This document shows positions 12,131-16,355 of a DNA stretch of 64,000 nt, in pieces. Origin of the DNA: an uncultured Gelidibacter sp. (lineage in GTDB: Bacteria; Bacteroidota; Bacteroidia; Flavobacteriales; Flavobacteriaceae); NCBI RefSeq assembly GCF_947500795.1, contig NZ_CANMTE010000001.1:682001-746000 (forward strand), written 5' to 3'. A model generated the notes under the pieces. That model searched no databases, was not told where the DNA came from, and worked only from the letters and a program-made list of their open reading frames with translations. Each line of letters starts with the position of its first letter. The stretch's first letter is position 1. The translations under genes and the position numbers were made by a program.

Positions 12131-12547
12131 ATGTCCATACCATTAGAAAAAAATAAACAACTGATCCTTTTTGATGGTGTTTGCAATTTGTGCAATACCT
12201 CCGTCCAATACGTCATCAAGCATGATCAAAATGATGTGTTTCGGTACACCGCGTTGCAAAGTGAGGTTGGGCAAGAATTATTGAAACAATTTAAGATCGA
12301 CACTAAAAAAACAGATTCTATTCTCCTGTATTCTGAAGAAAATGGAATCTCCTATAAATCTACTGCCGCATTAAAAATAGCTTCAAAATTGGGTTTTCCA
12401 AGAAATCTTATTGCCGTTTTTTTGATAGTTCCTGCATTCATTAGAAATTGGGTGTATGATTTTATCGCTAAAAACAGATACAAATGGTACGGTAAGAAAG
12501 ATGAATGTATGATTCCGACGGCGGAATTAAAATCGAAATTTCTATAA
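12131..12547 (+). CDS. DCC-family (DUF393) thiol-disulfide oxidoreductase-like protein
   Basis: The product is 138 residues. The N-terminal LILFDGVCNLCNTSVQYVIKHD carries the DxxCxxC signature of the DCC/DUF393 family at about residues 15-22, followed by FRYTALQSEVGQELL and YKSTAALKIASKLGFP. The fold is thought to be thioredoxin-like, and a disulfide role is predicted rather than proven. A hydrophobic stretch (LIAVFLIVPAFIRNWVYDFIA) near residue 100 may be membrane-associating. The gene lies 68 bases after mutS2, perhaps in the same transcript, and ends at a strong terminator. Confidence 0.88.
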   Translation: MSIPLEKNKQLILFDGVCNLCNTSVQYVIKHDQNDVFRYTALQSEVGQELLKQFKIDTKKTDSILLYSEENGISYKSTAALKIASKLGFPRNLIAVFLIVPAFIRNWVYDFIAKNRYKWYGKKDECMIPTAELKSKFL

Positions 12548-12562
12548 CATATTAGTAAAACA

Positions 12563-12586
12563 AAAAGTCCTCAAATGAGGACTTTT
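12563..12586. terminator. Bidirectional rho-independent terminator
   Basis: A 10-bp perfect stem, AAAAGTCCTC / GAGGACTTTT, encloses an AAAT loop. It lies between the convergent DCC gene and the ATP-grasp operon and serves both. Confidence 0.88.
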
Positions 12587-12632: not shown

Positions 12633-13673
12633 CTATAATGTTGCCAATCGGCTATTGTAAAGATAGTCGTTGTACATGCTTTTGTAGTATACTTTTCGTT
12701 CTATGGATTCAATTACTGGGGTTGCAAAATCGGCTTCATACATCTGCCCCATCACGTTTAAGCCACCTGGACTAAAAACATTAATCTCCATTAATTTGGA
12801 GCCTACAATATCAATCCCTACCAAGAACATTCCATCTTGAACAAGCTTAGGTTTTACGATATCCGCCAATTCCATAATTTGGTCAGTCATTTTGACTTTT
12901 TGAGGTTTTCCACCCGCGTGAATATTGCTTCGGATATCTCCAGAGGCATTCACCCTTTGCATTAAGGCATATTGCCCATTAACCTTCAGCGGTTCCCCAT
13001 TCATTATAAATAATCTCGTATCACCTCCAGTAGCTTCCGTGAGATATTCTTGAGCTATCACAAAGCCATCTCTACAAATGGCATCAATGGTTTGGCTGAG
13101 ATTGTGTTCGTTTTTCTTATCCATCATAAAAACGTTTGTTCCTCCAGAGCCTTGTAAAGGCTTCAGAATCATCTTCTGCTTTTGCTCTTTGAAGAACTCT
13201 TTTATTTCATTATGATCTCTTGTTATAATTGTTTTTGGGCGAATAATTTCTGGGAAATGCTGGAAATACATCTTATTAACGGCACCCGCTAAACTACTTG
13301 GGTGGTTGAGTACAATCACACCATTTCTCATGGCGATTTCACCAAATATAAATGCTGCATTATAAGCCCAATCACGTTCATTGATCTCATCAGCAGGATT
13401 GTTTCTTAAAAAAAGCACATCTAAATCTTCCGATGACAAGGTTGTAAACTCTTCCTTTTGTAGCGCTTTAAAATAGGTTTCTTCGCTCTTAAATGTGCGC
13501 TCTTTTATCGTTTTACAACGTACGGAAAGATGGCCTTGTGAGGCGTAAGACAATTCGCCAACGCCAATAAAATAAACTTCGTGCCCTCTTTTATAGGCAG
13601 CAAAGCCTAAAGCAGGTGTTGTATAATTCCACTTCTCTGTGGCATGATCATTTATTATAAACGCTATTTTCAT
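12633..13673 (-). CDS. GshB-like ATP-grasp carboxylate-amine ligase
   Basis: The product is 346 residues. The N-terminal pre-ATP-grasp part begins KIAFIINDHATEKW and includes DVLFLRNNPADE. The ATP-grasp core has KTIITRD, MILKPLQGSGGTNVF (phosphate-clamp loop, near 170-185), VIAQEYL, DTRLFIMNGEP, and the Mg-binding end LMEINVFSPGGLNVMG near 292-306. It most resembles prokaryotic glutathione synthetase (GshB), which joins a peptide carboxylate to an amine with ATP. No gshA is nearby and the genome carries bshA for bacillithiol, so glutathione may not be the product. It is the third gene of an operon with the DUF1704 and N-formylglutamate-amidohydrolase-like genes, 12 bases after DUF1704. A peptide or protein-tail ligase is the alternative reading. 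Confidence 0.85.
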   Translation of the reverse strand: MKIAFIINDHATEKWNYTTPALGFAAYKRGHEVYFIGVGELSYASQGHLSVRCKTIKERTFKSEETYFKALQKEEFTTLSSEDLDVLFLRNNPADEINERDWAYNAAFIFGEIAMRNGVIVLNHPSSLAGAVNKMYFQHFPEIIRPKTIITRDHNEIKEFFKEQKQKMILKPLQGSGGTNVFMMDKKNEHNLSQTIDAICRDGFVIAQEYLTEATGGDTRLFIMNGEPLKVNGQYALMQRVNASGDIRSNIHAGGKPQKVKMTDQIMELADIVKPKLVQDGMFLVGIDIVGSKLMEINVFSPGGLNVMGQMYEADFATPVIESIERKVYYKSMYNDYLYNSRLATL

Positions 13674-13685
13674 TTTTATATAATT

Positions 13686-15524
13686 TTAATTAACAAGTTC
13701 AACAATATTGATGCCCTCACGTAATTTTTGTAATCGTATTTTTACATCGTCACGCTTTAAAAATCGAGGTAAAACGGGCTGTTTTAATACCTCTCGATAA
13801 AGTAATTCTTCTATTAATTTAATATGGGTTACATTAAACTTGCCTGTATAAAGCGGTTCAAGTTTGCCTCCATTTTTTAAATAAGCCATTAAGTCTATAA
13901 GGCCAGCTAAATACACGGCATCTTTGGTAAGTCCACCACCTCTATAAACGCGCATGCTAATGTAATAGGCCACACGAGCAGGAAATGCGTATGATGATCT
14001 CAACAGATTAAAAGTCTCAATAAAACTGGCATTATCAACCATAGATTGTACAGCAATGACTCTTCCGGCCAATAAGCGCAGTCTGTTTATAGTTAAACCG
14101 CCTACGAGGTATTCTGCGATTACAGCTAAACCTTCCTGCAACTGGTCATAGCCCTCAAAACCTTCGTGCATTTGCTTTAGGGGTTGACTTTTTCCGTTAC
14201 AATAGGTTAAAATATGAGTGCCAATTTCGTGCTGTATGAGGGCATCACACCTATTGACATCTAAATTCATTTCTTCATTAATAAGTAATTTCGATTTGGA
14301 TACCATAATTCCCGCGACATCATCGCGTATTTCTATACCCAAATCCACTTCGGGAAACAGTTGGGTATAATAGTCCATTTCTCGTTGCGCAAATTCGGCA
14401 AACTCTACCCCATTGTAGCGCTTTGAACTTCTTATAGTTTCGCCTTCAGGATACACTTGCAAAATGTGTTTTGCTACTTGCAAAATGTCTTCCCTAATGA
14501 CGCCATACAGGCTTTCGCCTATAAATCTGAAATTTTCTGTACCACGCTCTTCCAACATGATGAGTTGCTTTTCAATTTCAAGACGTTTTCCCCTTAAAAT
14601 AAAGGCGATAGTAGGATCTTCTATAAGATCTATGGGGATATTGAATAGTTTCCGTTTTTCAAGCTCAGGATCAACGGCAAGCAGTCGGTATTTAAAAGAA
14701 GGAGGCTTTTCGAAGTTATTCTGCTCAAATTTATCCCATTCTTCATTACTGTTTACAGGCGTGACACGCAGTAAAAAGGACATGCCTTCACTAATTTCAG
14801 CCAATTTACTGTCAGCAGATAAGGTAATTGCATCAATATGGGTTTTGCCCAGCATTAAATAATTTTCAAAGGCATCGGTGGTTTGTACTCTTATAAATTC
14901 GTGTACTGCTCTTTTAATCGTTTCAGAAAATATGGTGTAGAATTTCCTAAAAAACAACGAAAACAACTGATTGGTAGCGGTGTTTTCATAAACAGTAGGT
15001 ATTGATACCCCAATAATCAGTGTGCCTTGTTTTTTAGACTGCTCAACACCTAATAAAGGTGTGAGGTGTTTTGGATGTCTGAATTCTGTATGAATAATTT
15101 TAGAATCTACATAAGACAATGTTTTTCTAATTTCACTAAACCCTTCACGTAAGGCATTAAGTGTCTCTAACGATTTAGTTTTCGGTCCATAAATTTGAAA
15201 CTGATGTTTTAAGGAATCATTATTTGGCCATAATTCTAGAATTAAAAATGTATCAAACCTTTCTGAAGTAATTAATCTGATGGCTTCCAGAAGATGGGAA
15301 ATATCAATGTCCTCATCTACGATAAGGTAAGATGCTTGAGTTTTCAATAATCTGGAAAAATAAACATCGCGCTTTTTATACCGATAGACGCAAATATAGG
15401 GCAGCAGTTTATCAATATGTAAGAGTCCTTTATTGGGGAACTCCACAGTTACAGGAACATTTTCTGTAACATTTTTACAAATTGTTTCAACTACATCAGC
15501 TTCTATATGATAATCTTCAGTCAT
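13686..15524 (-). CDS. DUF1704 / QEGLA-motif putative zinc metallopeptidase
   Basis: The product is 612 residues, soluble, without a signal peptide. The C-terminal half carries HEIGTH at 432-437 (an HExxxH zinc motif) and QEGLAVIAEY beginning at Q463; Glu464, 27 residues after His437, would be the third zinc ligand. This is the DUF1704 family, named in databases as flavohemoglobin expression-modulating QEGLA protein. Its eukaryotic relatives (KIAA0895L/MATCAP) are tyrosine carboxypeptidases. The N-terminal 300 residues are a family-specific alpha/beta region. The stop of the upstream gene abuts this ATG directly (TAAATG), so the two are coupled, and an ATP-grasp ligase follows. A C-terminal-residue peptidase is the inferred activity; the substrate is unknown. 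Confidence 0.85.
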   Translation of the reverse strand: MTEDYHIEADVVETICKNVTENVPVTVEFPNKGLLHIDKLLPYICVYRYKKRDVYFSRLLKTQASYLIVDEDIDISHLLEAIRLITSERFDTFLILELWPNNDSLKHQFQIYGPKTKSLETLNALREGFSEIRKTLSYVDSKIIHTEFRHPKHLTPLLGVEQSKKQGTLIIGVSIPTVYENTATNQLFSLFFRKFYTIFSETIKRAVHEFIRVQTTDAFENYLMLGKTHIDAITLSADSKLAEISEGMSFLLRVTPVNSNEEWDKFEQNNFEKPPSFKYRLLAVDPELEKRKLFNIPIDLIEDPTIAFILRGKRLEIEKQLIMLEERGTENFRFIGESLYGVIREDILQVAKHILQVYPEGETIRSSKRYNGVEFAEFAQREMDYYTQLFPEVDLGIEIRDDVAGIMVSKSKLLINEEMNLDVNRCDALIQHEIGTHILTYCNGKSQPLKQMHEGFEGYDQLQEGLAVIAEYLVGGLTINRLRLLAGRVIAVQSMVDNASFIETFNLLRSSYAFPARVAYYISMRVYRGGGLTKDAVYLAGLIDLMAYLKNGGKLEPLYTGKFNVTHIKLIEELLYREVLKQPVLPRFLKRDDVKIRLQKLREGINIVELVN

Positions 15525-16355
15525 TTAAATGGAATATATATTATAAAAATTAGCAGCGTGTTCAGGCAATCTTTTTCGGAGTCCTTTTCTGATCGCAGAA
15601 ACAACTTCCGGATAGACTATTTGTCCTTCTTCATCACAGTAAATTTTTGCCACTTCAGTCGCTACAACAAGGGTGTTATTAAAATTATTGGTGATATACT
15701 TCAAAAAATAACCATTGCCCTGGAACGTGTCGTTTATTTTAGCTGTAGTCGGGATGCCATTTGGCAATTTAATCTCAGAGAGCTCGTGTCTCCAATCTTC
15801 TATCGAATTTTTAAAACGTTCATTGTCGACATTGGACGTTCCTAAATTCCAAGTTGGAACTTCCCTATCCCAACGTTTCCAATTGTAACTGTGCATGTCA
15901 TAAACAATACAGCAGCCAAACTTTTTTTCGAGGGTTTTAATGAGTGCATGAACAACCTTATAAAAATTACGGTGTTTCTCTAAACTTAATGCTTTCTCAT
16001 CAGCCGTTAAAGATTCTTTCCACAATTGTTTGCCCCATGCATCATCATAAATGGCATTGTCAGGATCACGATTTAAATCATATTCAAATCTAGAATCCAA
16101 GCCCGAAATGACAATTGGAAAGTCATTTACCATTGTTTTAGTCTCAGGATCCTCTTCGTACCAACGTTCATATTCTGAATGTGAACACTTTTGCCATAGT
16201 TCTTTCCTGAATTGATGTCCGTTATGTACAGCAGCGCAGGCATAAGGTACATATTCGTCAATTTTAATGGTGAAGGAATAATCTGAAGCCACGGCATGAA
16301 ATGAGTCATGTGCTTCTATTTTTGAGAGTATATCTTCAAGTGTTAATCTTTGCAT
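15525..16355 (-). CDS. N-formylglutamate amidohydrolase-family protein
   Basis: The product is 276 residues, soluble. The family (HutG-2 type, PF05013) hydrolyses N-formylglutamate to formate and glutamate with a zinc centre. Visible motifs are AAVHNGHQFR (His44, His47), the DSRFEYDLNRD segment (Glu91, Arg96) and YDMHSYN (Asp153, His155). No other histidine-degradation gene (hutU, hutI, hutH) is adjacent. It heads an operon with the DUF1704 peptidase-like gene and the ATP-grasp ligase. Its job is therefore more likely tied to a peptide or amino-acid conjugate than to histidine catabolism; that is inference. The ATG is at 16353-16355. Confidence 0.88.
   Translation of the reverse strand: MQRLTLEDILSKIEAHDSFHAVASDYSFTIKIDEYVPYACAAVHNGHQFRKELWQKCSHSEYERWYEEDPETKTMVNDFPIVISGLDSRFEYDLNRDPDNAIYDDAWGKQLWKESLTADEKALSLEKHRNFYKVVHALIKTLEKKFGCCIVYDMHSYNWKRWDREVPTWNLGTSNVDNERFKNSIEDWRHELSEIKLPNGIPTTAKINDTFQGNGYFLKYITNNFNNTLVVATEVAKIYCDEEGQIVYPEVVSAIRKGLRKRLPEHAANFYNIYSI

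Follow-up and report, generated by a model that had tools for sequence, protein, structure and literature searches.

ATP-grasp ligases of the GshB type use the carboxylate group of N-acylated amino acids, and amidohydrolases of the HutG and AstE/AspA types cleave N-acyl amino acids. In mammals, the N-acetylaspartylglutamate (NAAG) cycle is formed by the ATP-grasp enzymes RIMKLA/B, glutamate carboxypeptidase II and ASPA (PMC3872778; this and the other papers given by PMC number are cited from parts of their text). In bacteria, RimK adds glutamates to ribosomal protein S6 and RimB removes them, and RimK also makes free polyglutamate (PMC11957791). The human relatives of the MATCAP group remove C-terminal residues of tubulin (PMC10499314). 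Here, these systems are compared with a three-gene operon of an uncultured Gelidibacter sp. (assembly GCF_947500795.1, contig NZ_CANMTE010000001.1), located in a stretch of 64,000 nucleotides, the window, to whose numbering all positions refer. The operon encodes an N-formylglutamate-amidohydrolase-like protein (FGA), a MATCAP-type carboxypeptidase and an ATP-grasp ligase (ATPG). These three genes are a conserved module, and the reading that we tentatively favour, by analogy with the NAAG cycle, is that the operon may be a cytoplasmic module making and recycling a small N-acyl (or gamma-glutamyl) peptide. At the level of titles and abstract starts, no publication on the trio or on the function of bacterial MATCAP relatives was found among the matches listed, and a word search of PMC13269789 gave no mention of bacteria or archaea. 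The operon is not claimed as a first description, as the amidoligase survey of Iyer et al. 2009 (Mol BioSyst) may already mention this neighbourhood.

ORF (open reading frame) calling placed the three genes on the minus strand in the order FGA, MATCAP and ATPG, and the ORF coordinates give the same gaps of 0 and 12 bp as the initial annotation, in which the head-to-tail trio was first pointed out. The three products match their families above the cut-offs: FGA passes PF05013 (FGase; 51.1 bits vs 28.9), the MATCAP protein passes PF08014 (312.4 bits vs 27), and ATPG passes the glutathione synthetase families PF02955 (GSH-S_ATP; 176.9 bits) and PF02951 (GSH-S_N; 45 bits).

Related loci were collected in one scan of genome contigs, from which the best 80 of at least 591 matching stretches, many of them metagenome bins, were kept as named loci; this set therefore leans to long relatives of the MATCAP protein in the window. 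According to their record titles, the 80 loci span Bacteroidota genera, Planctomycetes, Calditrichaeota, Verrucomicrobia, Gemmatimonadota, Acidobacteria, Poribacteria, Campylobacterales, several Proteobacteria and others. Adjacency was tested with profiles that were built from the same loci and run on all ORFs, in the 57 loci where MATCAP has 2.5 kb or more on each side (the other 23, short on one side, were excluded). A distance of 1.5 kb or less separates ATPG from MATCAP in 57/57 loci, and FGA is adjacent in 49/57, with all genes on a single strand in 48 of these 49. Counts from ORF clustering were lower (ATPG 73/79, FGA 60/79), since the greedy ORF filter had removed overlapping genes. No further family is as common near MATCAP: the next most frequent clusters occur in no more than 10 of 79 loci, several being largely from Pontibacter.

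The same association is observed across genomes. Among 296 Bacteroidota genomes, MATCAP is present in 16 and a strong match to NF009110, a glutathione synthetase-like subfamily, of at least 396 bits in 15, all of which have MATCAP; 14 of these exceed the curated cut-off, and weaker matches raise the total to 115. The next-best scores, 215 and 194 bits, are found in genomes without MATCAP (G249 and G133). Among 59 relatives, MATCAP is present in 23 and a strong GSH-S_ATP match (at least 138 bits) in the same 23, with a next-best score of 82 bits, and weaker RimK-like matches bring PF02955 to 39/59. Fisher tests gave 2.6e-24 (296 genomes) and 6.9e-17, values that ignore shared ancestry and come from samples overlapping by a few genomes, with bit thresholds (396 and 138) set after gaps in the scores were seen. 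One kind of ATP-grasp ligase is thus found with MATCAP in every one of the 57 loci and in 15/16 Bacteroidota genomes, and the co-conservation is far above chance. The initial annotation had called for such a neighbour survey and had made its proposal depend on co-conservation and on intact catalytic sites; the trio is co-conserved and the catalytic residues are present.

MATCAP relatives are also carried by 126 plasmid records, mostly from Sinorhizobium. In Shinella (L126), genes annotated as N-formylglutamate amidohydrolase, QEGLA protein and glutathione synthase are consecutive, and in Sinorhizobium meliloti (L122) the third gene is absent from the gene table and present as an ORF (302.8 bits); a literature search with guessed S. 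meliloti locus tags gave no match. In Vibrio vulnificus, VV2_1203/VV2_1204 (COG3930/glutathione synthetase) are jointly listed as clade-2-specific (PMC3091676). Eleven named loci have at least two ATPG matches, among them L044. In L032 and L086, the matches look like split genes. Locus L058 holds two MATCAP-ATPG pairs, one with a split ATPG, and seven loci (L059, L060, L071, L072, L083, L088 and L094) have two or three full-length ATP-grasp copies. The only phage record matching the MATCAP domain is that of Pseudomonas phage Y1 (OQ572403.1, 63521-64540), a weak match with 26% identity (E 4e-9).

Judged by its sequence, ATPG is a ligase of the glutathione synthetase type, on a GshB-like branch, and not a tubulin tyrosine ligase (TTL). 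It passes NF009110 (430.5 vs 408) and stays below the TTL cut-off (PF03133; 13.5 vs 20.1 bits), both GshB equivalog cut-offs (NF003573, 217.9 vs 272; TIGR01380, 206.6 vs 299.05) and the RimK models (equivalog, 41.9 vs 331; RimK-family TIGR00768, 88.5 vs 143.4). The broad RimK-like ATP-grasp family PF08443 is passed (67.7 vs 21) at a score below that for GSH-S_ATP, and the ATP-grasp_3 cut-off is also passed, with a lower score. The nearest PDB entry is Escherichia coli GshB (1gsa; E 4.6e-35). Residues K134, K171, D288, E296 and N298 of ATPG align with K125, K160, D273, E281 and N283 of GshB, which we take to be the ATP/Mg residues, and they are conserved in 96-100% of cases in 76 relatives. ATPG probably joins an amino acid on.

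The AF2 model of the MATCAP protein (full length, pLDDT 91.6) places its C-terminal part (251-611) closest to human MATCAP (7z5g/7z6s; Z 24.3, 291-292 residues, rmsd 3.1). The zinc site H432/H437/E464, described as intact in the initial annotation, is indeed invariant among 48 aligned long relatives, as is E433. The protein probably cuts an amino acid off. The database name about flavohemoglobin expression, already set aside there as saying little about mechanism, is formally not earned, as the model for 'flavohemoglobin expression-modulating QEGLA protein' is not reached (TIGR02421; 304.7 vs 338.65). A lone short MATCAP gene at the usual chromosomal site of one relative (L010/L170, G015:C14) reads HEIGVN and QAGLA, so that its zinc site is broken; that site is without FGA and ATPG, and a second copy elsewhere on the contig has an intact motif, ATPG and AstE.

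FGA probably removes an N-terminal cap. Its AF2 model (pLDDT 94.9) matches best the N-formylglutamate amidohydrolase 2q7s (Z 25.0, 238 residues, rmsd 2.4), then 2odf (Z 22.3), with M14 carboxypeptidases next (Z 11-13). Residues H44, D93, D153, H155 and E234 are among the invariant positions of 40 aligned sequences. The protein fails the HutG deformylase equivalog (TIGR02017; 16.8 bits vs 278.75).

The initial annotation left this third enzyme unexplained and also missed a domain of the MATCAP protein. The first third of that protein has no Pfam match, and its first approximately 215 residues are most likely a degenerate FGase-fold domain without the metal histidines, as judged from profiles and models. 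Over its whole length, its profile aligns with that of FGA (hhalign probability 94%; E 2e-8 for a one-profile comparison; 8% identity; reverse direction 78%, E 2e-6). For model residues 30-215, 2q7s is the top row in VIA-align (Z 13.3, 173 residues, rmsd 3.1), the next rows having Z about 10, while Foldseek alone gives E 0.02. FGA D153 aligns to MATCAP E97 (E in 80/80), H155 to W99 (W in 67/80) and E234 to S174 (E in 42/80), and H44 would, from its strand position, face the variable residue 49; R48 of the domain is conserved. In Vibrio sp. HDW18 (L124, 8317-10308), an FGase domain (44.9 bits) is joined to MATCAP in a locus without annotated ligase neighbour, and DMY stands in place of the conserved DxH; a MATCAP-fused FGase domain may thus have lost its metal site on more than one occasion.

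Several operon types can be distinguished. Most named loci are of type A, with FGA_A, a long MATCAP and ATPG_A. Type B, observed in flavobacteria, consists of ATPG_B, FGA_B and a short MATCAP (about 386 aa), and in some cases a rhodanese or a 110-aa protein is encoded in between; a conserved protein of about 110 aa without Pfam match is found next to FGA_B in L164 (9107-9436), L165 and L030. Hybrids (L030, L178 and L179) have ATPG_B, FGA_B, a long MATCAP and ATPG_A, and the operon in the window has FGA_B, a long MATCAP and ATPG_A. A dicarboxylate symporter gene lies just upstream in 10/14 type B loci, in 3/3 hybrids and in the Gelidibacter locus L027; aroC frequently lies further upstream, and DCC/mutS2/ung on the downstream side. 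One chromosomal site houses the operon in many flavobacteria. The operon in the window thus resembles a chimera of the two types, possibly a hybrid minus ATPG_B.

In type A', FGA is missing and an AstE/AspA-type gene is found beside ATPG. Six such loci were observed (L148, L171, L172, L174, L175 and L176, in the last on the opposite strand), and Pfam supports five of the six AstE/AspA genes. Of 15 sampled genomes with MATCAP and ATPG, 13 have FGA in the cluster and two (G110 and G328) have AstE/AspA beside ATPG; four further AstE cases are the relatives G015, G020, G021 and G029. In three loci (L007, L020 and the Vibrio locus above), FGA and MATCAP form one polypeptide, as expected if the product of one enzyme is the substrate of the next. 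A candidate MATCAP-ATPG fusion of 914 aa in G286 (L185/L120) was rejected, as the coordinates put both matches in different reading frames. The core of the module is ligase plus MATCAP, and its third slot is occupied by FGA or, in six relatives, by AstE, both predicted to have like chemistry.

In the favoured reading, ATPG would activate the free carboxylate of an N-acyl amino acid and attach an amino acid, in parallel to GshB acting on gamma-glutamyl-cysteine and RIMKLA acting on N-acetylaspartate. The MATCAP domain would then take that C-terminal amino acid off, in the role of glutamate carboxypeptidase II, and FGA would deacylate the N-acyl amino acid that is left, in the role of aspartoacylase. 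The metal-less FGase-fold domain would probably hold or position the acyl end of the substrate. The reaction directions, the one metabolite linking them, the cytoplasmic site and the identity of the acyl group and amino acid are what we infer here. The chemistry of GshB and RIMKLA, together with the three matching chemistries of the NAAG cycle, favours an N-acyl-peptide cycle over editing of a protein tail. In addition, the third enzyme is of an N-acyl-amino-acid amidohydrolase type and is swapped for AstE/AspA in some relatives and fused to MATCAP in others, which would fit a small N-acyl peptide better than the C-terminus of a protein. Also by analogy, a trio of the same enzyme classes in the same genome is counted for this reading: RimB-like (PF05618), RimK and AstE/AspA genes are consecutive in L188 (6341-8737, G000:C2), and across eight RimK loci (L152-L158 and L188) AstE is adjacent in 7/8 and RimB in 6/8. 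The words succinylglutamate and aspartoacylase are absent from the RimB paper PMC11957791.

Multiple observations weigh against an N-acyl-peptide cycle. Eight of the 57 loci are without FGA, and an AstE relative is found in 0/80 named loci, including 0/8 of the FGA-less ones; adjacency of a third enzyme is thus no fixed rule, and both FGA and AstE are missing from L173 and from named loci such as L032-L034. MATCAP occurs without a strong ligase match in G241 and, by incomplete gene tables, without ligase in Pseudoalteromonas (L125) and Vibrio (L124). The pseudo-FGase domain rests on an alignment at the low identity, lower reverse probability and Foldseek value given above, and it was modelled only within the full-length protein. 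Those relatives of the MATCAP domain that have solved structures work on the tails of proteins, and the RimK/RimB pair edits such a tail besides making free polyglutamate (PMC11957791). Finally, the GshB-like gene of Photobacterium is induced at low salt, which is opposite to the prediction for a simple osmolyte (PMC10308900).

Among the alternatives, editing of a protein C-terminal tail survives best and is nevertheless rather unlikely. Here, ATPG would add one or more amino acids to a cellular protein, MATCAP would remove them and FGA would trim or recycle the released products, following the models of the tubulin tyrosination cycle and of RimK/RimB on ribosomal protein S6. Human MATCAP, the closest solved fold, belongs to a group that trims the tubulin C-terminus (PMC10499314), and in bacteria RimK and RimB have been proven to work as a ligase/protease pair on the tail of a protein (PMC11957791). 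In a low-salt expression table of Photobacterium damselae, RimK (52-fold), a GshB-like gene (38-fold) and a QEGLA gene (27-fold) appear together, the QEGLA gene carrying the locus number next to that of the GshB-like gene, and the text describes RimK and the GshB-like gene as upregulated at low salt (PMC10308900). Also, a RimB-family gene (PF05618) directly follows MATCAP-ATPG in L105, the sole RimB relative found among the MATCAP loci; the three proteins of the window operon have no PF05618 match. On the other hand, ATPG is of the glutathione synthetase type and falls under the TTL cut-off, the FGA/AstE partner and its fusion to MATCAP would have no obvious role on a protein tail, and no widely recurring fourth neighbour offers itself as target. 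The idea of an add/remove cycle or of synthesis and turnover of a small conjugate, put forward in the initial annotation, was of the right class, while its parallel with tubulin tyrosination is the weaker part and finds no support in the form given there: the ligase is GshB-like, and a deacylase partner fits a small metabolite better.

Improbable is a variant pathway for glutathione or another low-molecular-weight thiol, in which ATPG would be a true glutathione synthetase and the hydrolases would degrade glutathione or an analogue. NF009110, which is passed, is named for glutathione synthetase, no solved structure matches better than that of the E. coli enzyme, and a GCS2 gene is present in the genome. 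Against this, both GshB equivalog cut-offs are missed, and the PF04262 ligase is found in 0/59 genomes. GCS2 is present in 15/59 relatives and, among the 23 module-bearing genomes, in 11 and absent from 12, while BshC is present in 55/59, the genome of the window included, so that bacillithiol is the expected thiol. With BshC widespread, PF04262 absent and GCS2 patchy, classical glutathione synthesis is unlikely. The GCS2 gene of the own genome sits outside the operon in another ATP-grasp cluster. This second peptide-ligase-like cluster (L189, 4537-11402; G000:C1, about 172.5-179.4 kb) encodes GCS2, a class-I glutamine amidotransferase, ATP-grasp proteins, a weakly GSP-synthase-like protein and an esterase. 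In the FGA-less loci L032-L034 and L173, a convergent gene of 531-544 aa lies downstream. It encodes BshC in L034 and, judged from coordinates, also in L173, and BshC relatives in L032 and L033.

More improbable still is that the operon would recycle or remodel cell-wall peptides in the cytoplasm, such as fragments containing L-Ala-gamma-Glu. The FGA fold is shared with Csd4 (Z about 11), residues 30-215 of the MATCAP model also match Csd4 and N-acetylmuramoyl-L-alanine amidases (Z about 9-10), and gamma-glutamyl acceptors would suit a GshB-like ligase. However, digestive carboxypeptidases give similar Z values, and no peptidoglycan gene was found among the identified neighbours, most neighbours being without identification. 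A cluster for secondary-metabolite or ribosomal-peptide maturation, to which the seven loci with two or three ATP-grasp copies, as in peptide assembly, could point, is highly improbable given the one chromosomal site in many flavobacteria, the little space for a precursor gene (with ORFs of 80 aa and more searched) and the lack of a widely recurring transporter family (neighbour clusters in at most 10/79 loci). A defence system was also considered and rejected, as the three proteins have no PADLOC match at E 0.01.

The coordinates of the operon are collected in Table 1. About 200 bp are free upstream of FGA, and with the gaps of 0 and 12 bp there is little room for a precursor-peptide gene (ORFs of less than 80 aa were not searched). 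By eye, no signal peptide was seen on the operon proteins. The common terminator proposed in the initial annotation corresponds to a terminator-like hairpin 3' of ATPG, in an 8-kb region where 8 such sites were found vs 5.0 expected from shuffles. This hairpin sits between convergent genes with A and T runs on its flanks, and it may therefore also serve the plus-strand gene at 12131-12547. Other neighbours across the named loci follow no general pattern and include MgtE, CorA, MscS, OmpA, macro domain, metallophosphatase and glutamine cyclotransferase proteins. Magnesium transporters (MgtE/CorA) or a mechanosensitive channel are near the module in L057, L064, L088 and L072, and a glutamine cyclotransferase gene is directly 3' of ATPG in L053 (12113-13078), a locus without FGA.

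Table 1. Operon features and their positions in the window.
Feature	Position	Strand	Description
FGA	15525..16355	-	276 aa; N-formylglutamate-amidohydrolase fold, 'type B' subfamily; first operon gene
MATCAP-type protein	13686..15524	-	612 aa; two domains
ATPG	12633..13673	-	346 aa; glutathione-synthetase-type ATP-grasp ligase, NF009110 subfamily
N-terminal FGase-fold domain of MATCAP, aa ~30-215	14880..15437	-	predicted pseudo-amidohydrolase, no conserved metal histidines
C-terminal MATCAP carboxypeptidase domain, aa 251-611	13692..14774	-	fold match to human MATCAP
HEIGTH zinc motif, aa 432-437	14214..14231	-	H432, E433 and H437 invariant
QEGLA motif, aa 463-467	14124..14138	-	Q463, E464 and G465 invariant; E464 probable third zinc ligand
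Terminator-like hairpin	12563..12586	-	downstream of the operon; possibly bidirectional

MATCAP was recently identified as an enzyme of the tubulin code in animals, and its bacterial relatives now have a concrete and testable partner ligase. Exchange of the hydrolase and the parallel trio RimB-RimK-AstE suggest that ligase, trimming peptidase and deacylase form a general design, which could assign roles to many genes annotated as glutathione synthase, QEGLA protein and N-formylglutamate amidohydrolase. It is conceivable, if doubtful, that bacteria of many phyla run a NAAG-like cycle for an undescribed N-acyl peptide, built from a dedicated ligase, MATCAP and an N-acyl hydrolase, and that the eukaryotic tubulin detyrosinase MATCAP was recruited from this carboxypeptidase of small peptides.

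Compared with the described systems, the operon shows both shared and differing features. ATPG has both domains of E. coli GshB (1gsa) and the aligned ATP/Mg positions, whereas T288-C289 of GshB correspond to G303-G304 in ATPG, the GshB equivalog cut-offs are not reached and a GshA partner has no matching pattern. FGA has the fold of 2q7s and lies far under the HutG equivalog cut-off. The MATCAP protein shares the catalytic fold and the HExxxH...EG zinc site with human MATCAP/TMCP (KIAA0895L, KIAA0895), and only the bacterial protein has the putative pseudo-FGase domain and the ligase and hydrolase as operon partners. The RimK-RimB-AstE cluster of the same genome likewise combines an ATP-grasp ligase, a residue-removing peptidase and an AstE/AspA amidohydrolase, but RimK is not of the GshB type, the retropepsin-like RimB is not a zinc enzyme of the MATCAP kind, and this peptidase is without the FGase-fold domain. 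The proteins of the NAAG cycle are distantly related or unrelated to those of the window in each role. That cycle has a known substrate and no operon, yet it is built from the same three chemistries that are proposed here: ATP-grasp addition to an N-acyl amino acid, C-terminal removal and N-acyl hydrolysis (PMC3872778).

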